From the NCBI GenBank assembly GCA_024998815.1, contig JACEUQ010000003.1, forward strand, positions 124,001-188,000: a DNA stretch of 64,000 bases, given 5' to 3'. Made by a program: the position numbers and the translations under genes. This DNA comes from Opitutus sp. Lineage in GTDB: Bacteria; Verrucomicrobiota; Verrucomicrobiia; Opitutales; Opitutaceae. Below, piece after piece: positions 46,656-57,022 of the stretch (positions are counted from its first letter, which is position 1; each line of letters opens with the position of its first letter). The notes below the pieces were generated by a model. That model was not told where the DNA came from. It saw only the letters and a list, made by a program, of their open reading frames with translations, and did no database searches.

Positions 46656-46959
46656 CTGGCTGGACCACCGGCTGGTGCGGGGCAATTACCTGGGGCGGGC
46701 CAGTGCCCCCGCCTGGGGCCTCTATCTGGTCCTGGTCACCGTGGGTGACGCCGACGGGCTGAGTTACTACGCCACGCGCACCCTGGCCCGGCTGCTCACG
46801 CTCAGCGAGGACGGCCTGGTCGAGGCGCGCCGGCAGTTAATCGAGGCCGGGGTGATCGCCTACGCCGCGCCACTTTACCAGGTGCTCTCCTTGGACCGGG
46901 GCAGGCCAACGCACACGCTGGCGGTAACGCCGTCGCCGAGCCGGGAGGTGGGGGCGTGA
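46600..46959 (+). CDS. IS21-associated small HTH-like protein (copy 2)
   Basis: 119 aa, differing from copy 1 only near the C-terminus (AVTPSPSRE for AATPPPSRE). The helix-rich block LARLLTLSEDGLVEARRQLI is followed by a short beta wing (GVIAYAAPLYQVLSL), like a small winged helix. GTGA overlap with istA indicates translational coupling. Confidence 0.65.
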   Translation: MQKQPIDREQLRRTPAQFSWLDHRLVRGNYLGRASAPAWGLYLVLVTVGDADGLSYYATRTLARLLTLSEDGLVEARRQLIEAGVIAYAAPLYQVLSLDRGRPTHTLAVTPSPSREVGA

Positions 46960-48422
46960 TCAATTACGAACTGTATTGCCGGATAAAACAGGCGGAGGCG
47001 GCCGGACACAGTGCGCCGCAAATCGCCCGCTCGCTCCAGTTGCACGTGCAGACGGTGAGGCGCTGGCAGGCGCAGGAAAAGTACGCGCGCAGCCAGGCCG
47101 CGCAGGTGCCTAGGCCAAGCAAGCTCGACGTGCACAAGCCGGCGATCGCGCGGTGGCTGGAGGCCCATCCGTTCACCGCCATGCAGCTCTGGCAAAAGGT
47201 GCGCGAGCGGGGGTACACGGGCGGGTATTCAATTTTGAAAGACTACGTGCGGCGGGTGCGGCCGCGGAACCTGGAGGCGTTTCTTACCCTCAAGTTCGCC
47301 CCCGGCCAGACCGCGCAGGTGGACTGGGGCAGTTTTGGCGCGGTGGAGGTGGACGGCACCCGGCGGGCTTTAAGTTTTTTCGTCATGGTTTTGGGGTACA
47401 GCCGGTTCCTGCATGTGGAATTTACCCTCGGGCAGGGCCAGGAGTGGTGGCTGGGCTGTCACCGGCGCGCCTTTGAAAAACTCGGCGGGGTGCCGCGCGA
47501 GGTGATGGTGGACAACTGCAAGACGGCCGTCCTCTCGCATGTGCCCGGGACCGACCCGGTGTACAACGCCCAGTACCTGGACTTTGCCCGGCACTACGGG
47601 TTTACGATAAAAGCGTGCGGGCCGGGGCATCCGCAGTCCAAGGGCATGGTGGAAAACGCGGTGGGTTACGTGAAAAAAAGCTTCCTTGGCGGGAGGCAGA
47701 TGAATGGGTTTACCGAGCTGGGGCCGGCCGCCAGCTTGTGGCTGGAAACGGTGGCCAACGTGCGCGTGCACGCTGAAACCCAGGGCCGGCCGGTGGACCG
47801 GCTGCCCGAGGAGCGCGCTGCGCTCCTGCCGCTTAACCCGGTGGCCAGTCCGGCGGTGCGCACCTTAAGCGTGCGGGCGTCGCGGCGGTGCCGGGTGAGT
47901 ATCGAAACGAACCGCTACTCGGTGCCCACGAAGTTTGCCGGGGCGCTACTCACCGCGCAGATCGAGGGGGCGCAGGTGAGGTTTTTTGCGGAACGCACCC
48001 TGGTGGCCGAGCACGCCCGCAGTTTTGCCCGCCGCGCCGATGTGGAAAACCCCGAGCATGTGCGCGAACTCGAGGAGCGCAAACGGCAGGGGGCGCGGCA
48101 GCGCCTGCGGCTACGGTTTTTGGAACTGAGCCCGGCGGCACCCGCCTACCAACGGGGGCTGGAGGAGCGCCGGCTCAACGCGGGACACCACCTGGCGACT
48201 ATCGTGGGTTTGGTGGCCCTGTATGGAACGGATGCAGTCGGCCGGGCGATCGAAAGCGCCCATGAACTCGGCGCCTACTCCAGCGATTACATCCTCAACT
48301 TGCTCGAACAACGCGCGCGGGCCTTGCCGCAAGCCGGGCCGATCCACCTCACCCGCGCCGACGCGTTGGCCGCACTGGAACTCGAACTACGGCCCCCGGA
48401 TTTAAGCCCCTATACCCAATGA
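46956..48422 (+). CDS. istA: IS21-family transposase IstA (intact)
   Basis: 488 aa. N-terminal HTH (HSAPQIARSLQLHVQTVRRWQ), rve-type DDE core with Asp in TAQVDWGSFGAVEVDG, Asp in EVMVDNCKTAVLS and Glu in GHPQSKGMVENAVG, then a beta-barrel-like C-terminal region (RCRVSIETNRYSVPTKFAG). It starts at GTG coupled to the previous stop and ends ATGA with istB. Intact, so it could mobilise both copies. Confidence 0.95.
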   Translation: MINYELYCRIKQAEAAGHSAPQIARSLQLHVQTVRRWQAQEKYARSQAAQVPRPSKLDVHKPAIARWLEAHPFTAMQLWQKVRERGYTGGYSILKDYVRRVRPRNLEAFLTLKFAPGQTAQVDWGSFGAVEVDGTRRALSFFVMVLGYSRFLHVEFTLGQGQEWWLGCHRRAFEKLGGVPREVMVDNCKTAVLSHVPGTDPVYNAQYLDFARHYGFTIKACGPGHPQSKGMVENAVGYVKKSFLGGRQMNGFTELGPAASLWLETVANVRVHAETQGRPVDRLPEERAALLPLNPVASPAVRTLSVRASRRCRVSIETNRYSVPTKFAGALLTAQIEGAQVRFFAERTLVAEHARSFARRADVENPEHVRELEERKRQGARQRLRLRFLELSPAAPAYQRGLEERRLNAGHHLATIVGLVALYGTDAVGRAIESAHELGAYSSDYILNLLEQRARALPQAGPIHLTRADALAALELELRPPDLSPYTQ

Positions 48423-49186
48423 AAACAGAACCCGAAAAACCCGATTTATTAAAAGACCAGCTCAAGTATCTGAAACTCGGTTACCTGTTGCGTCACCACG
48501 GCGAACTGACCGCCGAGGCGGCCAAGGCGCGCTGTTCGCACGCCGAATTTTTACGCCGACTGGTGCAGGCCGAGACCCAGGATCGCCAGATCCGGGCGCT
48601 GGAGCGGCGCATCCAGGCAGCGCGCTTCCCGGTCAAGAAAACCGTCGACCAGTTCCAGTGGGACTGGCCCAAGGAGTTGAACGAAGCGCAGGTACGCCAC
48701 CTCTTCGAACTGGGCTTTGTGAAGGAGCGCACCAACGTGGTGTTTTGCGGTGGTGTGGGGCTCGGTAAAACACACCTCGCGAGCGCGTTGGGCTACGCGG
48801 CCTGCCAGGCGGGTTACACGGTGCTGTTTACGACGGCGGTGGACGCGATCAACGCCCTGGTCACCGCCCAGTCCCTGCACCGGTTGCAAGCCGAGTTGAA
48901 GCGTTACATGACCCCTGCGGTGCTCGTGCTCGATGAGGTCGGCTACCTGCCGCTCGACAAGTCGGGGGCCGACCTGCTCTTCCAGATCGTCAGCCAACGC
49001 TACGAACGCGGCTCGCTGATCGTCACCACCAACAAGGCCTACAAACACTGGGCAGGGATCTTTAACAACGACGCTGGCATCACCGCGGCGATCCTGGACC
49101 GCCTGCTGCACCGGGCCCAGACCGTCGTCATCGAGGGCAAATCCTACCGCATGAAAGACCGCCTAGCCGACGAACCTGCAAGCTGA
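48419..49186 (+). CDS. istB: IstB-family AAA+ transposition helper (copy 2)
   Basis: 255 aa, differing from copy 1 at two residues (KPD for KTD near the start; TNVVF for TNAVF). Walker A GGVGLGKTHLASAL, Walker B VLVLDEVGYLPL. Followed by the same long terminator hairpin just inside the IS right end (about 49190-49233). Confidence 0.95.
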   Translation: MKTEPEKPDLLKDQLKYLKLGYLLRHHGELTAEAAKARCSHAEFLRRLVQAETQDRQIRALERRIQAARFPVKKTVDQFQWDWPKELNEAQVRHLFELGFVKERTNVVFCGGVGLGKTHLASALGYAACQAGYTVLFTTAVDAINALVTAQSLHRLQAELKRYMTPAVLVLDEVGYLPLDKSGADLLFQIVSQRYERGSLIVTTNKAYKHWAGIFNNDAGITAAILDRLLHRAQTVVIEGKSYRMKDRLADEPAS

Positions 49187-50295
49187 CCGGGCCTGATGAT
49201 CGGCCCCTGGCGGGGCCGGTCATCGGCTTTTACGACAGGTGATTTTGTAACCGCCAGAAATAGACGGTGTTCGCGCCGCCGCTCACACAACGACTCGCTC
49301 CCGCAGAGCAACACCCGCACGCGCCCAGCAAAACGCTCACTGAGTGGATCCCCTGGGTGCCGGACCAACAAGCCCTCCACCAACATCTGCTTTTGCGTAT
49401 CCAGATTCTCACTTTCCAGCACCACCAGCACCACCGGACGGTCATTATCCTGCGCCGGGGCCAGTAATTCCATGAGCACCGCCCGGTCGATCCACCCGGC
49501 AAGGCACGCCACCAGCAAGGAATTCTGCGGTCGCACGAGGTCCACCGCCAGGTCGAGCACACCAAAACCGAGGTGACTCTGCACCACCGCCAAAGAGCCA
49601 AAGCCCCTCAGCCGCGCAAAATCTTTGTTTAACTCACGCGCTTGCGCCGAGCACCCCAGACGAAGTGGCACGCCCCTCGCTCCTTCGCCCCACTCAGCGC
49701 CTGCTTCCGGCGCTTTGGTCGCGCTCGCCAGCCAATCGGCGGCGGTGGCGCAAACGGCGGCTTTTCCGGGCTGCAGTCCGCGCTTCGGCAGCGCGAGTTC
49801 GATTTGCTCCACCATGGCGCGCGGGTCCACTGGTTTCACCCAAATATCAACCACTCCCAGCTGGCGGTACTGCGCCCCCTGAGCCTCGCTGTGGCCCCCC
49901 ACACAAAGCACCAGCGGCAAATCGGGGAAAAACTTCCGCAGCATGACCAGCAGGCCCAGTTCGACTGCATCGCCCGCCACCAAATCGACCAAAATCACAT
50001 CGGCAGGATCCGCCCTTAAGACCGCCACCGCCTCGATACTGGTCTGCACGCAGGTAATTCGATAGCCGATGGGGCCGAGTAACAGCGCCAAAGCCGATTC
50101 ACCAACAGGCGCCTTTTCGGTCACCAAAATGTGATAGTCGGCGTGGGTAAGCACAGAAACAGGGGGTATGCCCGAAACTGCCCCGCCCATAAGCAAACGC
50201 AATGGCCCTTATTACATTTTTTTAACATTTAAGGCAGCCCTTCGTGCGCATCGACTTCCGGCACGGACGACACGGAGATCGCCCCCCCCCCGAAA

Positions 50296-50645: not shown

Positions 50646-51518
50646 TCAGCTATTGAGCAACAACCCAGTCCCATCTCCGCTCGCCAGCGTCAGTTTCCCC
50701 GGACTGCGCAGCGTCGCCTGCACATCCAGCAGCGCGAACAACGCATCGGCCACCTCCGGCACGCGCTGGATCTCCGCCAGCGCCCGGCCCACCACTTGCG
50801 GCCGCACCGCTTGCGCCTGGCCGAGCCGCTGCGCAGCCTGGCGGTCGGCCTCCGAGTGGATAATCGCCACCTCGTTGTCGCCGGCTTGGCGCATCGCGGC
50901 GGTCACTTGGCGCAGGCGGTTGACCACCTTGCGCTGAATCTCGGCGATCATGCCCTTGTCGCGGAAAGCCACCTTGCGGATGTAGGTCGAGCCCAGGCTA
51001 AAACCCCACTGCGAGGAGGTGGGCGAAACCTCTTCGCGCACCTTGCGTGAAAGCGCATCGCGGTTTTCCAGCAGCACCTCGAGGCGCAGGTTGGAGAGCT
51101 GTTTAACAATGGCGGTGGCGACGTTGGCTTTGAGTGAGCCGATCGGGTCGGAGTTTTGAAACAGGAACGCCTTGGGGTTGTTGACGAACATCTCGAACCA
51201 GATGCCCACGCCCATCGGCGCGCCTTCTTCGGAATTCACTAACTGGTTACGCAGGTAGGCCTGGTGAATCACCGTGCTCACCACGTAGGCCTTGCCGAAC
51301 AGCGGGAACAGCAGCGCGCGCGGGCCGAAGTGCATGATGGGCAGAAACAGGCCGGGCTCGTCGACCTGGCCGACGACTTTGCCGAAGAAGGTGTAAACGA
51401 TCACCGTGCGCTCGGGCAGCACGCGCCAGAGCTGGAACATGCGGCCGATGGCGAGCACGATGGGCGTGGCGATGAAGGTGCCGATAGCACCCAGGATAAG
51501 TGTCGATAAAAATGACAT
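50646..51518 (-). CDS. SPFH/Band 7-domain membrane protein, second gene
   Basis: 290 aa from ATG 51518. N-terminal span (TLILGAIGTFIATPIVLAIG) then an SPFH-like domain (ERTVIVYTFFGKVVGQVDEPGLFLP ... VSTVIHQAYLRNQLVNSEEG) and a helical part rich in Ala/Gln (QAGDNEVAIIHSEADRQAAQRLGQAQA), like stomatin/prohibitin relatives. It lies 19 bp after the other SPFH gene; the pair probably forms a hetero-oligomeric membrane scaffold comparable to HflK/HflC, though sequence similarity to HflC is not strong. Confidence 0.82.
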   Translation of the reverse strand: MSFLSTLILGAIGTFIATPIVLAIGRMFQLWRVLPERTVIVYTFFGKVVGQVDEPGLFLPIMHFGPRALLFPLFGKAYVVSTVIHQAYLRNQLVNSEEGAPMGVGIWFEMFVNNPKAFLFQNSDPIGSLKANVATAIVKQLSNLRLEVLLENRDALSRKVREEVSPTSSQWGFSLGSTYIRKVAFRDKGMIAEIQRKVVNRLRQVTAAMRQAGDNEVAIIHSEADRQAAQRLGQAQAVRPQVVGRALAEIQRVPEVADALFALLDVQATLRSPGKLTLASGDGTGLLLNS

Positions 51519-51537
51519 GGCGGGGACGGGGCTGGAG

Positions 51538-52494
51538 TTAGAGTTTAAGCACGGTTTGGGCGGCCTTTTCGCGCAAGGGAAGGCGGGCGTTGCGCAGATA
51601 ACTGTCGAGCGCGGGCTTACCACCCTCGGCGTGCATGGCGGCGAGGGTTTTACCCAGCTCCAGCAGCGGCGCGGCCTCGGCCTGCGCGCGGTTCTCGGCG
51701 ATTTGCACGGCCTGCTCGGCCATTTTGAGGCGCTGGTCGGCGTCCGCCTTGGCTTGGCTGATCGAGGCGGCGACCTGGTTCTGCGTGGTGTTGATGGACG
51801 CGAGGGCCTCGTCGACGTCGCTCGGCGGGTCGATGTTGGTGATGAGAGCGGCGTCGAGATCGATGCCGTAGCGGGCAGCGGTCTTGCGGCAGGCGTCCTC
51901 CATAAAGCTGTTAATCAGCGAAAGGTTGCGCCGCAGGTCGTTGATGGAAACGCCCTCGACTGCGCCCTCGGCGGCCTCGCCGTGAAAGGTGGCGATGCGG
52001 TCGCGCAGCACCGAGATGAAGTACCCGACCACGTGGGCGGCCGGGCGCGAGATGCCGAACAGGTAGGCGTAGAGGTTGCGCTCGCACGGTTTCCACCGGA
52101 TCTGACCCGAGATCTGCACGGTGAGGTTGTCCTTGGTGACGGCCTCGATGGAGTCCTGGCGCACATCCGGATCCCAGGTGATGTCGACGGTTTGGATGGT
52201 CATATCGACCTTGTAGAGCTTCTGCCACGGCCACTTGAAATACGGGCCGCCCGGCTGGATGACGCGCACGCACGGATAGTTATAGCGCTGCTTTTCCTCG
52301 TCCGTGAGCAGCGGTGCGAGCACGGGATCCTCGGCGGTGGAGCCGGGAGTGCGCTGGGCGCGGCCGAAGGTGGTGAGCACGCCGCGTTCGGTCGGCCCGA
52401 TGGTATAAACGCCGAACAGCAGCGTGAGCAAAGCGGCAAGGCCGACCCCGAGGATCAGACCGGACAAGGATTCGATAGGGGAGTAGTAGTCCAT
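51538..52494 (-). CDS. SPFH/Band 7-domain membrane protein, first gene (HflK-like)
   Basis: 318 aa. N-terminal span (GLILGVGLAALLTLLFGVYTI) directly followed by IGPTERGVLTTFGRA, the canonical Band 7 entry, then YFKWPWQKLYKVDMTIQTVDI and TKDNLTVQISGQIRWKP. The C-terminal coiled coil (SISQAKADADQRLKMAEQAVQIAENRAQAEA) resembles HflK/prohibitin. Likely inner-membrane scaffold modulating proteases. An 11-bp G/C homopolymer lies 25 bp upstream of the start. Confidence 0.88.
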   Translation of the reverse strand: MDYYSPIESLSGLILGVGLAALLTLLFGVYTIGPTERGVLTTFGRAQRTPGSTAEDPVLAPLLTDEEKQRYNYPCVRVIQPGGPYFKWPWQKLYKVDMTIQTVDITWDPDVRQDSIEAVTKDNLTVQISGQIRWKPCERNLYAYLFGISRPAAHVVGYFISVLRDRIATFHGEAAEGAVEGVSINDLRRNLSLINSFMEDACRKTAARYGIDLDAALITNIDPPSDVDEALASINTTQNQVAASISQAKADADQRLKMAEQAVQIAENRAQAEAAPLLELGKTLAAMHAEGGKPALDSYLRNARLPLREKAAQTVLKL

Positions 52495-54975: not shown

Positions 54976-56910
54976 ATGACTACTGCCGCCGCTCTGAGTG
55001 AACCCTGCGTAATGATCATCTTTGGTGCGTCGGGCGACCTCACCAAACGCCTGCTGGTGCCATCCCTGTATAATTTGGCCTGCGACGGCCTGCTGTCGGA
55101 TAATTTTGCCGTTCTGGGCGTGGGCCGTAGCGAAATCACCGACGCCCAATTCCGCGCCTCGATGAACGGCGAAACCGACGGCCTGCCGAAATTCCACACG
55201 CGTAAAGAATACGACAAGGAGCAGAGCGCCAAGCTGATCAACCGCTTCCACTTTTCCTCCGCCAGCATCACGGTCGACGACTTTAAACAACTCAAGGAGC
55301 GCGTCAGCGCCCTGGACGCCGAGTATAAAGCGCAGGGTAACGTACTGTTTTATTTCGCCATGGCCCCGCGCTTTTTCGGCCCCTTGTGCGACACGCTCCA
55401 CGCAGCCGGTTTCCAAGACGGCCCGGGCTGGAAACGCATCATTGTAGAGAAACCGTTTGGCACCGACCTGAAATCCGCCCTGCAACTCAACGCGGAAATC
55501 CTGCGGCATTGGAACGAGGACCAGATTTTCCGCGTCGATCATTATCTCGGCAAGGAAACGGTACAAAACCTACTGGCGTTCCGCTTCTCGAACGGAATGT
55601 TCGAGCCGCTGTGGAATAGTCACCACATTGATAATATTCAGTTCAACGTCTGCGAGTCGGTCGATGTGCAGGGACGCGGTGGTTACTATGACAGTTCGGG
55701 CGTCCTGCGTGACATGATTCAGAATCACATGTTTCAGATGTTGTCCTACCTGTGCATGGAGCCACCCGGTTCCTTCGAGGCCGACTCCATCCGCAACGAA
55801 AAAGCCAAACTCCTGGAGTCGGTACGGGTATATAAGCCCGAGGAAGTGCCCAACTATGTGGTGCGCGGCCAGTACGGACCCGCGCATGACACCAACGGCG
55901 AAATCAAAAAGCCCGGCTATAGACAGGAAAAAGATGTCGCCGCCGACTCGAGCACGGAAACTTTTGCGGCCATAAAACTGCATATAGACAACTGGCGGTG
56001 GAGCGGCGTCCCAATTTACTTGCGCTCGGGCAAAGCCCTTTGGAAGCGCGGCACCGAAATCATCGTCACCTTCAAAACCGCGCCGGCCGCCGTTTTCCGC
56101 GGTACCGGCGTCGAGAAACTCGAACCCAACCGCCTCGTATTTCATATCCAGCCCCAGCAAGGCATTGAGTTATTATTTCAAGCCAAGGTGCCGGGCCCGA
56201 CCCTGCAATTGCAGAAAGTCGACATGAGCTTTAACTACGGAAACGTATTTAAGGCATCCCGTTACACTGGCTACGAGGTGATGTTTTATTCCTGCATGCG
56301 CGGCGACGCGACGCTGTTTTCGCGCGGCGACCTGGTCAAGGCGGCGTGGGAAATCGCCCAGCCCCTGCTGGATTATTGGCAGGCCAACCCGGCCGGCGCG
56401 GAGTTCCCCAATTACGCCCGCAACTCCTGGGGCCCGCCTGCGGCGAGCGCCTTGGTCGAGCGCGATGGACGCCGTTGGTATGAAGTCGTCACGCGCGATT
56501 TGTTGGAGCAAACCCCGCTATTTAAAGGCACCGACCCGATGTTAATCAACGCGGTGATCATGGCCTTTAAGTCACGTTCATTTACCGCCGGACAGACTAT
56601 AATAAAGGAAGGCGATACAGCCGGAGAGATGTATATTATCTGCCGTGGCGCGGTTGAAGTGACGGATAAAAACGGCAAGCACCTGAAGCACCTTTACGAC
56701 GGCGAATACTTTGGCGAAATCGGCCTGATACGCACCTCGCCGCGCACCGCCAACGTGGTGGCCACCAGCCAATGCGACCTGTTCATATTAGAAAAGTCGG
56801 ACTTTAACCGGATCATGCAGGACAACCCGCAGTTTGCGGAGGCCCTGTGCACACTCGCCAAGGAGCGTTATAATGTGGCTGTTTCGAGCGCCGATTTGAT
56901 GAGCACCTGA
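54976..56910 (+). CDS. zwf: Glucose-6-phosphate dehydrogenase fused to a cyclic-nucleotide-binding domain
   Basis: 644 aa, about 150 longer than typical Zwf. It oxidises glucose-6-phosphate to 6-phosphogluconolactone, making NADPH. Residues 1 to about 495 are a full enzyme: nucleotide-binding GASGDLTKRLLVPSL (from Gly17), EKPFGTDLKSA, and active-site RVDHYLGKETVQNLL (186-200, catalytic His near 189 and following residues). Residues about 510-640 form a CNB domain: LLEQTPLFKG, SFTAGQTIIKEGDTAGEMYII, and the phosphate-binding cassette YFGEIGLIRTSPRTANV, with Glu581 and Arg590 at the ligand-binding positions. Codons such as ATA, AGA and TTA are commoner than in neighbours. Monocistronic. The fusion suggests control by cAMP or cGMP. 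Confidence 0.94.
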   Translation: MTTAAALSEPCVMIIFGASGDLTKRLLVPSLYNLACDGLLSDNFAVLGVGRSEITDAQFRASMNGETDGLPKFHTRKEYDKEQSAKLINRFHFSSASITVDDFKQLKERVSALDAEYKAQGNVLFYFAMAPRFFGPLCDTLHAAGFQDGPGWKRIIVEKPFGTDLKSALQLNAEILRHWNEDQIFRVDHYLGKETVQNLLAFRFSNGMFEPLWNSHHIDNIQFNVCESVDVQGRGGYYDSSGVLRDMIQNHMFQMLSYLCMEPPGSFEADSIRNEKAKLLESVRVYKPEEVPNYVVRGQYGPAHDTNGEIKKPGYRQEKDVAADSSTETFAAIKLHIDNWRWSGVPIYLRSGKALWKRGTEIIVTFKTAPAAVFRGTGVEKLEPNRLVFHIQPQQGIELLFQAKVPGPTLQLQKVDMSFNYGNVFKASRYTGYEVMFYSCMRGDATLFSRGDLVKAAWEIAQPLLDYWQANPAGAEFPNYARNSWGPPAASALVERDGRRWYEVVTRDLLEQTPLFKGTDPMLINAVIMAFKSRSFTAGQTIIKEGDTAGEMYIICRGAVEVTDKNGKHLKHLYDGEYFGEIGLIRTSPRTANVVATSQCDLFILEKSDFNRIMQDNPQFAEALCTLAKERYNVAVSSADLMST

Positions 56911-57022
56911 CGAAGTAGCGCAGACTTCCAGTCTGCTTCAGTCGCTTCCCGAGCTGAATCGGAGCAGACTGGAAGTCTGCGCTACTTTTTTCGATCCCGG
57001 ACGACACGGAGGTCGTCCCTCC
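56911..57022. repeat. Palindromic repeat family A, full unit with tail
   Basis: GAAGTAGCGCAGACTTCCAG begins immediately after the zwf stop, and its partner ends GCGCTACTTTTTTCGATCCC; the tail hairpin ends GGTCGTCCCTCC at 57022. It sits between the convergent zwf and ftsY genes. The spacer TGAATCGGAGCAGAC is shared with the 59010 copy. Confidence 0.88.

Follow-up and report, generated by a model that had tools for sequence, protein, structure and literature searches.

The window, i.e. the whole stretch of 64,000 nucleotides of an Opitutus sp. genome (Verrucomicrobiota) analysed here, contains between recA and ftsY an uninterrupted frame of 644 codons, with an ATG start, a TGA stop and no internal stop codons, in which a glucose-6-phosphate dehydrogenase (G6PD) is followed by a cyclic-nucleotide-binding (CNB) domain (Table 1). 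The first-pass annotation, made from the sequence alone, had described a complete G6PD running in frame into a CNB domain, and this in-frame fusion is confirmed: the Pfam families G6PD_N (197.3 bits, cut-off 22.1), G6PD_C (371.2 bits, cut-off 27) and cNMP_binding (78.8 bits, cut-off 27.5) were all matched above their cut-offs, and the NCBIfam model zwf (TIGR00871) gave 560.7 bits for a cut-off of 400.6, so that the fusion protein passes the equivalog threshold. The protein ends 13 residues beyond Arg631, and no helix-turn-helix DNA-binding domain of the CRP/FNR type was matched in it by Pfam at E 0.001.

Table 1. Features of the fused gene and of its 3' side, in window coordinates
Feature	Position	Strand	Basis or remark
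G6PD-CNB fusion gene	54976..56910	+	644 codons plus stop; full-length relatives known
G6PD NAD(P)-binding domain, residues 14-198	55015..55569	+	Pfam PF00479; holds the D188-H189-Y190-x-G-K193 motif
G6PD C-terminal domain, residues 200-501, with H251 and K353	55573..56478	+	Pfam PF02781
Join, residues 503-531, running straight into the CNB N-terminal helices	56482..56568	+	Constant length; helices in the model
Cyclic-nucleotide-binding domain, residues 534-617	56575..56826	+	Pfam PF00027; CNB model; Foldseek matches to HCN/SthK
Phosphate-binding cassette (predicted), residues 579-594, with Glu581 and Arg590	56710..56757	+	Sequence FGEIGLIRTSPRTANV
C-helix (predicted), residues 618-632, with Arg631 aligned to the SthK C-helix Arg	56827..56871	+	Alignment and model; HCN2 roles from the available text of PMC3283738
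Palindromic hairpin just 3' of the fused gene	56912..56988	+	Fold z-score -8.93; two copies of the repeated motif

The repeated motif of the hairpin is a 17-base sequence, GCAGACTGGAAGTCTGC, which occurs in 18 copies between 3272 and 62538 of the window when up to 2 mismatches are allowed (0 expected), for example at 56920-56980. The copies sometimes stand in facing pairs, and the two that follow the fused gene fold into the very stable hairpin of Table 1. The motif looks like a dispersed REP-type element. The hairpin is a possible terminator; a scan for terminator-like structures gave one match there, with a total of 2 for the region vs a shuffle mean of 3.8, i.e. no excess. Elsewhere in the window, two adjacent SPFH/Band 7 genes (50646-52494, minus strand) are weakly HflK-like, below the NCBIfam cut-off, and two consecutive ORFs at 46956-49186 resemble, by eye, an IS21-type transposase and its ATP-binding helper. 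The latter overlap an ORF on the opposite strand similar to response regulators (49144-50202), whose receiver domain scored 29.9 bits, just under the cut-off of 30.2.

Relatives and the join

A scan of one genome per species returned 53 loci, 42 of which (L005-L043, L049, L050 and L056) match into the CNB domain, the other 11 being plain G6PDs. The alignment used below, A1, holds 42 proteins, including those of the window, L072 and L073, and leaves out L010 for its frame break, L041, which a contig end cuts so that it begins at residue 178, and L042, whose cassette contains masked bases. All three Pfam families were matched by 42/42 of the A1 proteins, three families in all being found at E 1e-5, with no channel domain of Pfam in any of the 42. 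Altogether, 88 distinct loci with both domains were counted, the window included; this total also contains G530, G702, G791 and 40 genomes sampled from the phylum to which a locus titled Betaproteobacteria belongs (1.3-3.1 Mb, hereafter the small-genome group), with seed genomes counted once and L101-L103 taken as L005-L007, inside which their first 60 bases lie.

Residues 501-531, across the join, have a single length in 42/42 aligned proteins, and so have the intervals 581-590 and 590-631 in A1, the interval 531-581 differing in 2 of the 42. The pairwise distances of the G6PD and CNB parts are correlated (r 0.84), a value matched in 0 of 2000 permutations. Two more family members come from contigs 2.6 and 3.3 Mb long, and the frame break of the relative L010 is near the start of the G6PD part, away from the join. 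An assembly or frame error as the source of the fusion, for which no support was found, has next to no probability: it is contradicted by the 88 two-domain loci, several of them on large contigs, and was ruled out. A chimeric assembly had been judged unlikely from the uninterrupted frame, and the homologues of the same architecture, together with the constant length of the join, now put this judgement on firmer ground.

Among four close genes, the dN/dS of the CNB part was 0.11-0.23 in 5 of 6 pairs, the sixth being undefined for saturated dS, and that of the G6PD part 0.04-0.07 in 6/6 pairs; these values are rough, dS being near saturation in the remaining pairs too. In these four genes the CNB part is, on this rough estimate, under purifying selection.

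As for the catalytic part, D188, H189, K193, H251 and K353, which we take to be the active-site positions of G6PD, are invariant in 42/42 A1 proteins and in 40/40 members from the small genomes. Two mutants of the Leuconostoc G6PD appear in PDB titles, D177N as an active-site mutant and H240N as an inactive one. The model of the whole protein (pLDDT 81.2, pTM 0.79) matches G6PD structures and has helices at 507-510 and 521-530, within the join; it is unsure at 191-197 and 353-357 among other stretches, which include some active-site loops. Judged from its sequence, the fusion protein is a complete glucose-6-phosphate dehydrogenase.

The nucleotide pocket

In mouse HCN2, the residues E582, R591 and R632 are named as important for cAMP binding in the available text of PMC3283738, and Glu581, Arg590 and Arg631 of the fusion correspond to them with the same spacing, of 9 residues from Glu to Arg and of 41 between the two Arg. 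The alignment with SthK is ungapped from E581 through R631, Arg standing opposite Arg. In A1 the CNB domain is the more variable part (mean entropy 1.57 bits vs 1.03 bits for G6PD), and nine of its positions never vary, namely M552, G558, G576, F579, G580, E581, R590, A592 and R631, of which M552, G576 and A592 do vary outside A1. The chance that three residues named beforehand all fall among 9 invariant positions of 125 columns is 2.6e-4, an estimate that ignores the constraints of the fold and the nine members with Leu590 outside A1.

The pocket was readable in 87 proteins, the window included (A1, L041, L094, L096, L098, L099 standing for L010, and the 40 of the small-genome group): Glu581 and Arg631 were each present in 87/87 and Arg590 in 78/87, with Leu at position 590 in 9, so that all three HCN-type residues occur together in the window and in 77 others of the 87. 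All the Leu590 carriers belong to the 40 small-genome proteins (L142, L144, L145, L147, L149, L151, L152, L154, which is the same gene as in L115, and L155); the three that were placed in the tree form one clade (100/100), and the other six share the motif. Moreover, Thr replaces Ala592 in 7/40 of the small-genome proteins. The Leu590 members, in which a change or a loss of the ligand is possible, count by their cassettes against a uniformly canonical pocket and offer a natural contrast.

Modelled on its own with AlphaFold, the CNB part had a mean pLDDT of 92.6. Nine of the ten best Foldseek matches of this model, with 35-38% identity, were CNB domains of HCN2, HCN4, HCN1, the sea urchin SpIH channel and SthK; the remaining one was a Streptomyces regulator domain (26%). 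Directly after Arg590 the fusion has T591, and SthK likewise has Thr there; the sequence of the cassette does not separate cAMP from cGMP as ligands. The pocket looks functional. The earlier proposal of an apparently functional cassette is backed more strongly by the conservation of the pocket and by the HCN2 spacing than by the motif from which it had been read, and the fold model, with its resemblance to HCN/SthK domains, agrees with it. The proposal holds for the window, where the pocket is canonical, but not throughout the family, since Arg590 has been lost in 9/40 members of one group.

Distribution and genomic setting

Matches over both domains were found in at least 1 of 288 Verrucomicrobiota and in 3 of 9 genomes of the same genus, in both cases among the matches listed, and in at least 4 of 200 genomes of the window's own family. 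The phylum samples of other loci gave at least 5 of 199 (Planctomycetaceae locus, 3 of the 5 being seeds), at least 12 of 235 (Myxococcales locus, 10 seeds of 12), at least 2 of 247 (Acidobacteria locus, 1 seed of 2, with a third match that is plain) and at least 41 of 398 (Betaproteobacteria locus, 1 seed of 41). These counts are lower bounds, the best few candidate stretches per genome being scored, with a strict threshold of 1e-165 for the Myxococcales, Acidobacteria, window-family and Betaproteobacteria samples. The fused gene is patchy and, in the window's family, an accessory gene. The closest relatives of the window's gene, at 82-85% identity, are in MAGs labelled Opitutus, Verrucomicrobia and Opitutae. 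Plasmid records matched in 367 cases, in six of which a single stretch covered 80% or more of the query; among 15 of the 367 that were listed, none spanned the CNB domain, the longest reach ending at residue 522.

In a tree of the G6PD part (61 rows, after 9/70 were dropped, i.e. three long-branched plain rows, including L002, and six near-duplicates), all the fused rows and the plain L077 fell in one clade (95/95), and the next branches outside it were L080 and L081, two plain genes of one planctomycete genome. The same clade was recovered at 90/95 when 12 of the 40 small-genome genes were added, with 13/70 rows dropped. L077 (also L084) is a G6PD of the planctomycete sample, 59% identical and devoid of the CNB domain; a tblastn search of the surrounding 9 kb (E 0.01) detected no remnant of the domain. 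The tree requires two changes, and counts of changes cannot separate gain from loss; most simply, there would have been a single gain with one loss in L077, and a single origin of the fusion is favoured. Since phyla are mixed within the fused clade, the tree suggests transfer between phyla, some cases of which may be explained by binning errors in MAGs. Record titles are not always reliable: L019 is titled Bifidobacterium breve, but the taxonomy used here assigns its genome to the same phylum as the Myxococcales locus, and in the tree its gene stands among proteobacterial and myxococcal rows; it is probably a mislabelled MAG.

The window's genome encodes a second, plain G6PD (L002, C1:1398075-1399616), 42% identical to the fusion. 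Its neighbours are a gene of OpcA type (39.5 bits against a cut-off of 27.9) and one of the 6-phosphogluconolactonase family. Therefore, control would reach just one of the two isozymes, and the idea that entry into the oxidative pentose phosphate pathway as a whole is under cAMP or cGMP in this organism had to be given up.

Three class III cyclase genes (PF00211) were found in the same genome, of which two carry a CHASE2 domain and the third is short. Both metal Asp motifs are kept, by eye, in the two CHASE2 cyclases, which also have the Lys/Thr pair that we take to be that of an adenylyl cyclase of the sAC/CyaC type. PF00211 was present in 40/41 genomes with the fused gene in the first set and in 40/40 in the second; none was found in the fused genome G295, a MAG that is perhaps incomplete. 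It was also present in 64/145 Verrucomicrobiota, the window's genome among them, and in 17/20 non-fused genomes taken from 357 of the Betaproteobacteria-locus sample. Cyclases are thus common without the fused gene too, and the co-occurrence is weak, i.e. consistent with control by a cyclic nucleotide and not specific for it. Other CNB proteins are encoded in the genome, two with several cNMP_binding stretches and a third with one; a 450-residue protein with two such stretches lies at L086:4001-5350 (+), and a frame of 583 codons, at G000:C3:589196-590110 (-), has three matches, whole or partial.

Flanks of the fused gene were compared for 18 of the 40 small-genome loci, with queries from L112, one of the 18. 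The gene of 6-phosphogluconate dehydrogenase (gnd) adjoins the fused gene in 14/18, and a 6-phosphogluconolactonase gene then follows, at once or after up to ~1.6 kb, in 13/18; L115 is cut by a contig end, and four of the 18 have neither gene. These neighbours link the small-genome group's fused enzyme with the oxidative pentose phosphate pathway. No conserved neighbourhood emerged from the first family set, where no family occurred in more than 3 of the 100 flanking ORFs scanned, which were drawn from 143 picked by script, the larger, doubtful and farther ones being left out; the 6-phosphogluconate dehydrogenase and gluconolactonase-like (SGL) families had 2 each of the 100. The window's recA, ftsY, nusB and one SPFH protein had no tblastn match at 1e-5 in the flanks of 13 loci (including L005-L007), flanks that are short, down to ~150 bases on one side of L007. 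Thus, the fused gene has no one fixed place among close relatives.

Possible control by a cyclic nucleotide

The catalytic core is common to ordinary G6PDs (Foldseek identity of 33-34% to the Leuconostoc enzyme, 1dpg, and of 40-41% to that of Synechocystis, 9emm). By contrast, in 42 solved G6PD-type sequences the match stops at or before query residue 504, and the fusion continues with the CNB domain after residue 503. By its title, the Synechocystis entry shows the enzyme bound to OpcA, a separate protein. The CNB fold is shared with the SthK and HCN2/HCN4 channels (35-38% identity) and with MloK1 (1u12, 29%), in which the effector is a channel, whereas that of the fusion is a soluble dehydrogenase, nucleotide binding being predicted. 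The fold is also that of the CRP/FNR proteins (47.3 bits with the CRP model, cut-off 266), although the fusion has no DNA-binding domain. The mycobacterial acetyltransferase Pat (CNB-GNAT) is a soluble enzyme with a CNB domain, to which the match was weak (45.4 bits, cut-off 460). Pat is controlled by cAMP, and its CNB domain precedes the catalytic one.

A bacterial sequence, Q0F2T2, has been described with the same architecture; we take it to be a Mariprofundus protein, and our guess is that the small-genome group belongs to the Zetaproteobacteria. The available text of a 2014 paper (PMC4106842) mentions in one parenthesis, as a single sequence, that Q0F2T2 joins G6PD to a CNB domain, and the protein is likely related to the family of the window. 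The same text deals with the trypanosomatid PGKL, the one other CNB fusion of this kind found in the literature covered, in which an enzyme domain of the sugar-pathway type is, as in the fusion, followed by a CNB domain; there, the enzyme domain and the CNB pocket are reported as degenerate, the latter without key nucleotide-binding residues (PMC4106842), whereas both look intact in the fusion of the window. The survey of CNB fusions by Kannan et al. 2007 (PMC2246266) does not, in its main text as available, use the terms glucose, dehydrogenase or G6PD. A literature search, mostly over papers outside subscription, returned no characterisation of a G6PD-CNB fusion. The layout, which the first-pass annotation did not know from characterised enzymes, is so far as this search goes still without a characterised example, but it is not entirely novel, given its mention in 2014 (PMC4106842, as available). 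As far as the literature searched shows, the architecture was noted before, and the extent of the family, its single origin, the conservation of the pocket, the operon setting and the Leu590 branch are apparently undescribed.

On the strength of the sequence and models, we suggest, as the reading we lean towards, that the gene of the window encodes a second G6PD isozyme and that a cyclic nucleotide, by binding to the C-terminal CNB domain of this same protein, sets how active it is. The class III cyclases of the cell would make the nucleotide, most likely cAMP; its binding would shut the C-helix over the pocket, and this closure would shift the helices at the start of the CNB domain. The end of G6PD runs straight into these helices, and their movement could alter the catalytic domain or its oligomer. 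By analogy, cAMP is the likelier ligand than cGMP, because SthK, according to the available text of PMC11630820, reaches full activation with cAMP and partial activation with cGMP. As to the sign of the effect, the effector stands N-terminal to the CNB domain in the fusion, and on this weak analogy activation by the ligand, i.e. relief of inhibition, would be somewhat more likely than inhibition. This arrangement is that of cAMP-activated channels. Several points speak against gating: Leu590 in 9/40 small-genome members, the existence of L077 without the domain, the unspecific co-occurrence with cyclases and, as described in the available text of PMC4106842, the degenerate CNB domain of PGKL.

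Some of these observations would also fit other roles for the domain. It could bind a cyclic nucleotide and serve to place or assemble the enzyme, through oligomerisation or docking of a partner, with catalysis unchanged, as might be expected from its location at the extreme C-terminus, from its being more variable than the enzyme, from L077, which belongs to the clade and keeps its G6PD, and from the many G6PDs that have no such domain. We regard this as unlikely: the constant join of residues 501-531 (42/42) argues for coupling, not for a loose tether, and the residues for the ligand are precisely the invariant ones in A1. That the pocket holds another ligand, i.e. a different cyclic nucleotide, a nucleoside or some other metabolite, seems to us likewise improbable, the Glu, the Arg and the C-helix Arg of cAMP/cGMP binders being kept in the window and in 77 others of the 87; the Leu590 members are in favour of it, as are, in the available texts, CNB families with ligands such as haem (Kannan et al. 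2007, PMC2246266) and the nucleoside-binding PKA of Trypanosoma (PMC10959531). A vestigial passenger without any ligand could account for the loss of Arg590 in nine members, for the absence of the domain in L077 and for its varying more than G6PD, and the CNB domain of PGKL, reported as degenerate in the available text of PMC4106842, would be a parallel; nevertheless, such a relic is hardly to be expected with a CNB dN/dS of 0.11-0.23 in 5/6 pairs and with Glu581 and Arg631 in 87/87 readable members.

Gating of the window's isozyme by a cyclic nucleotide is the reading we carry forward. What had been proposed from the sequence at the outset keeps its core, namely the in-frame fusion, the apparent pocket and the exclusion of a chimera, with these qualifications: control by cAMP or cGMP would concern one isozyme and not the whole pathway, the layout had one earlier mention in print, and not every member has a canonical pocket. 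For the family at large we find the case evenly balanced: one fusion might have made a cyclic-nucleotide-gated G6PD, which would have spread over at least Planctomycetota, Verrucomicrobiota, Myxococcota, Acidobacteriota and Pseudomonadota and placed entry into the oxidative pentose phosphate pathway under cAMP/cGMP, either as an extra isozyme, as in the window, or as the own enzyme of a pathway operon, the pocket of one lineage having changed to another ligand or to none.

The Leu590 members, L077 without the CNB domain and the plain isozyme of the same cell are clean material for tests, and the fusion would, if the proposal is true, give a soluble and easily assayed reporter for CNB domains of the HCN/SthK type. 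Most known cAMP effectors of bacteria are transcription factors, and few are metabolic enzymes. If true, here a second messenger would set the supply of NADPH by binding to the pathway's initial enzyme itself, with neither transcription nor a kinase in between.
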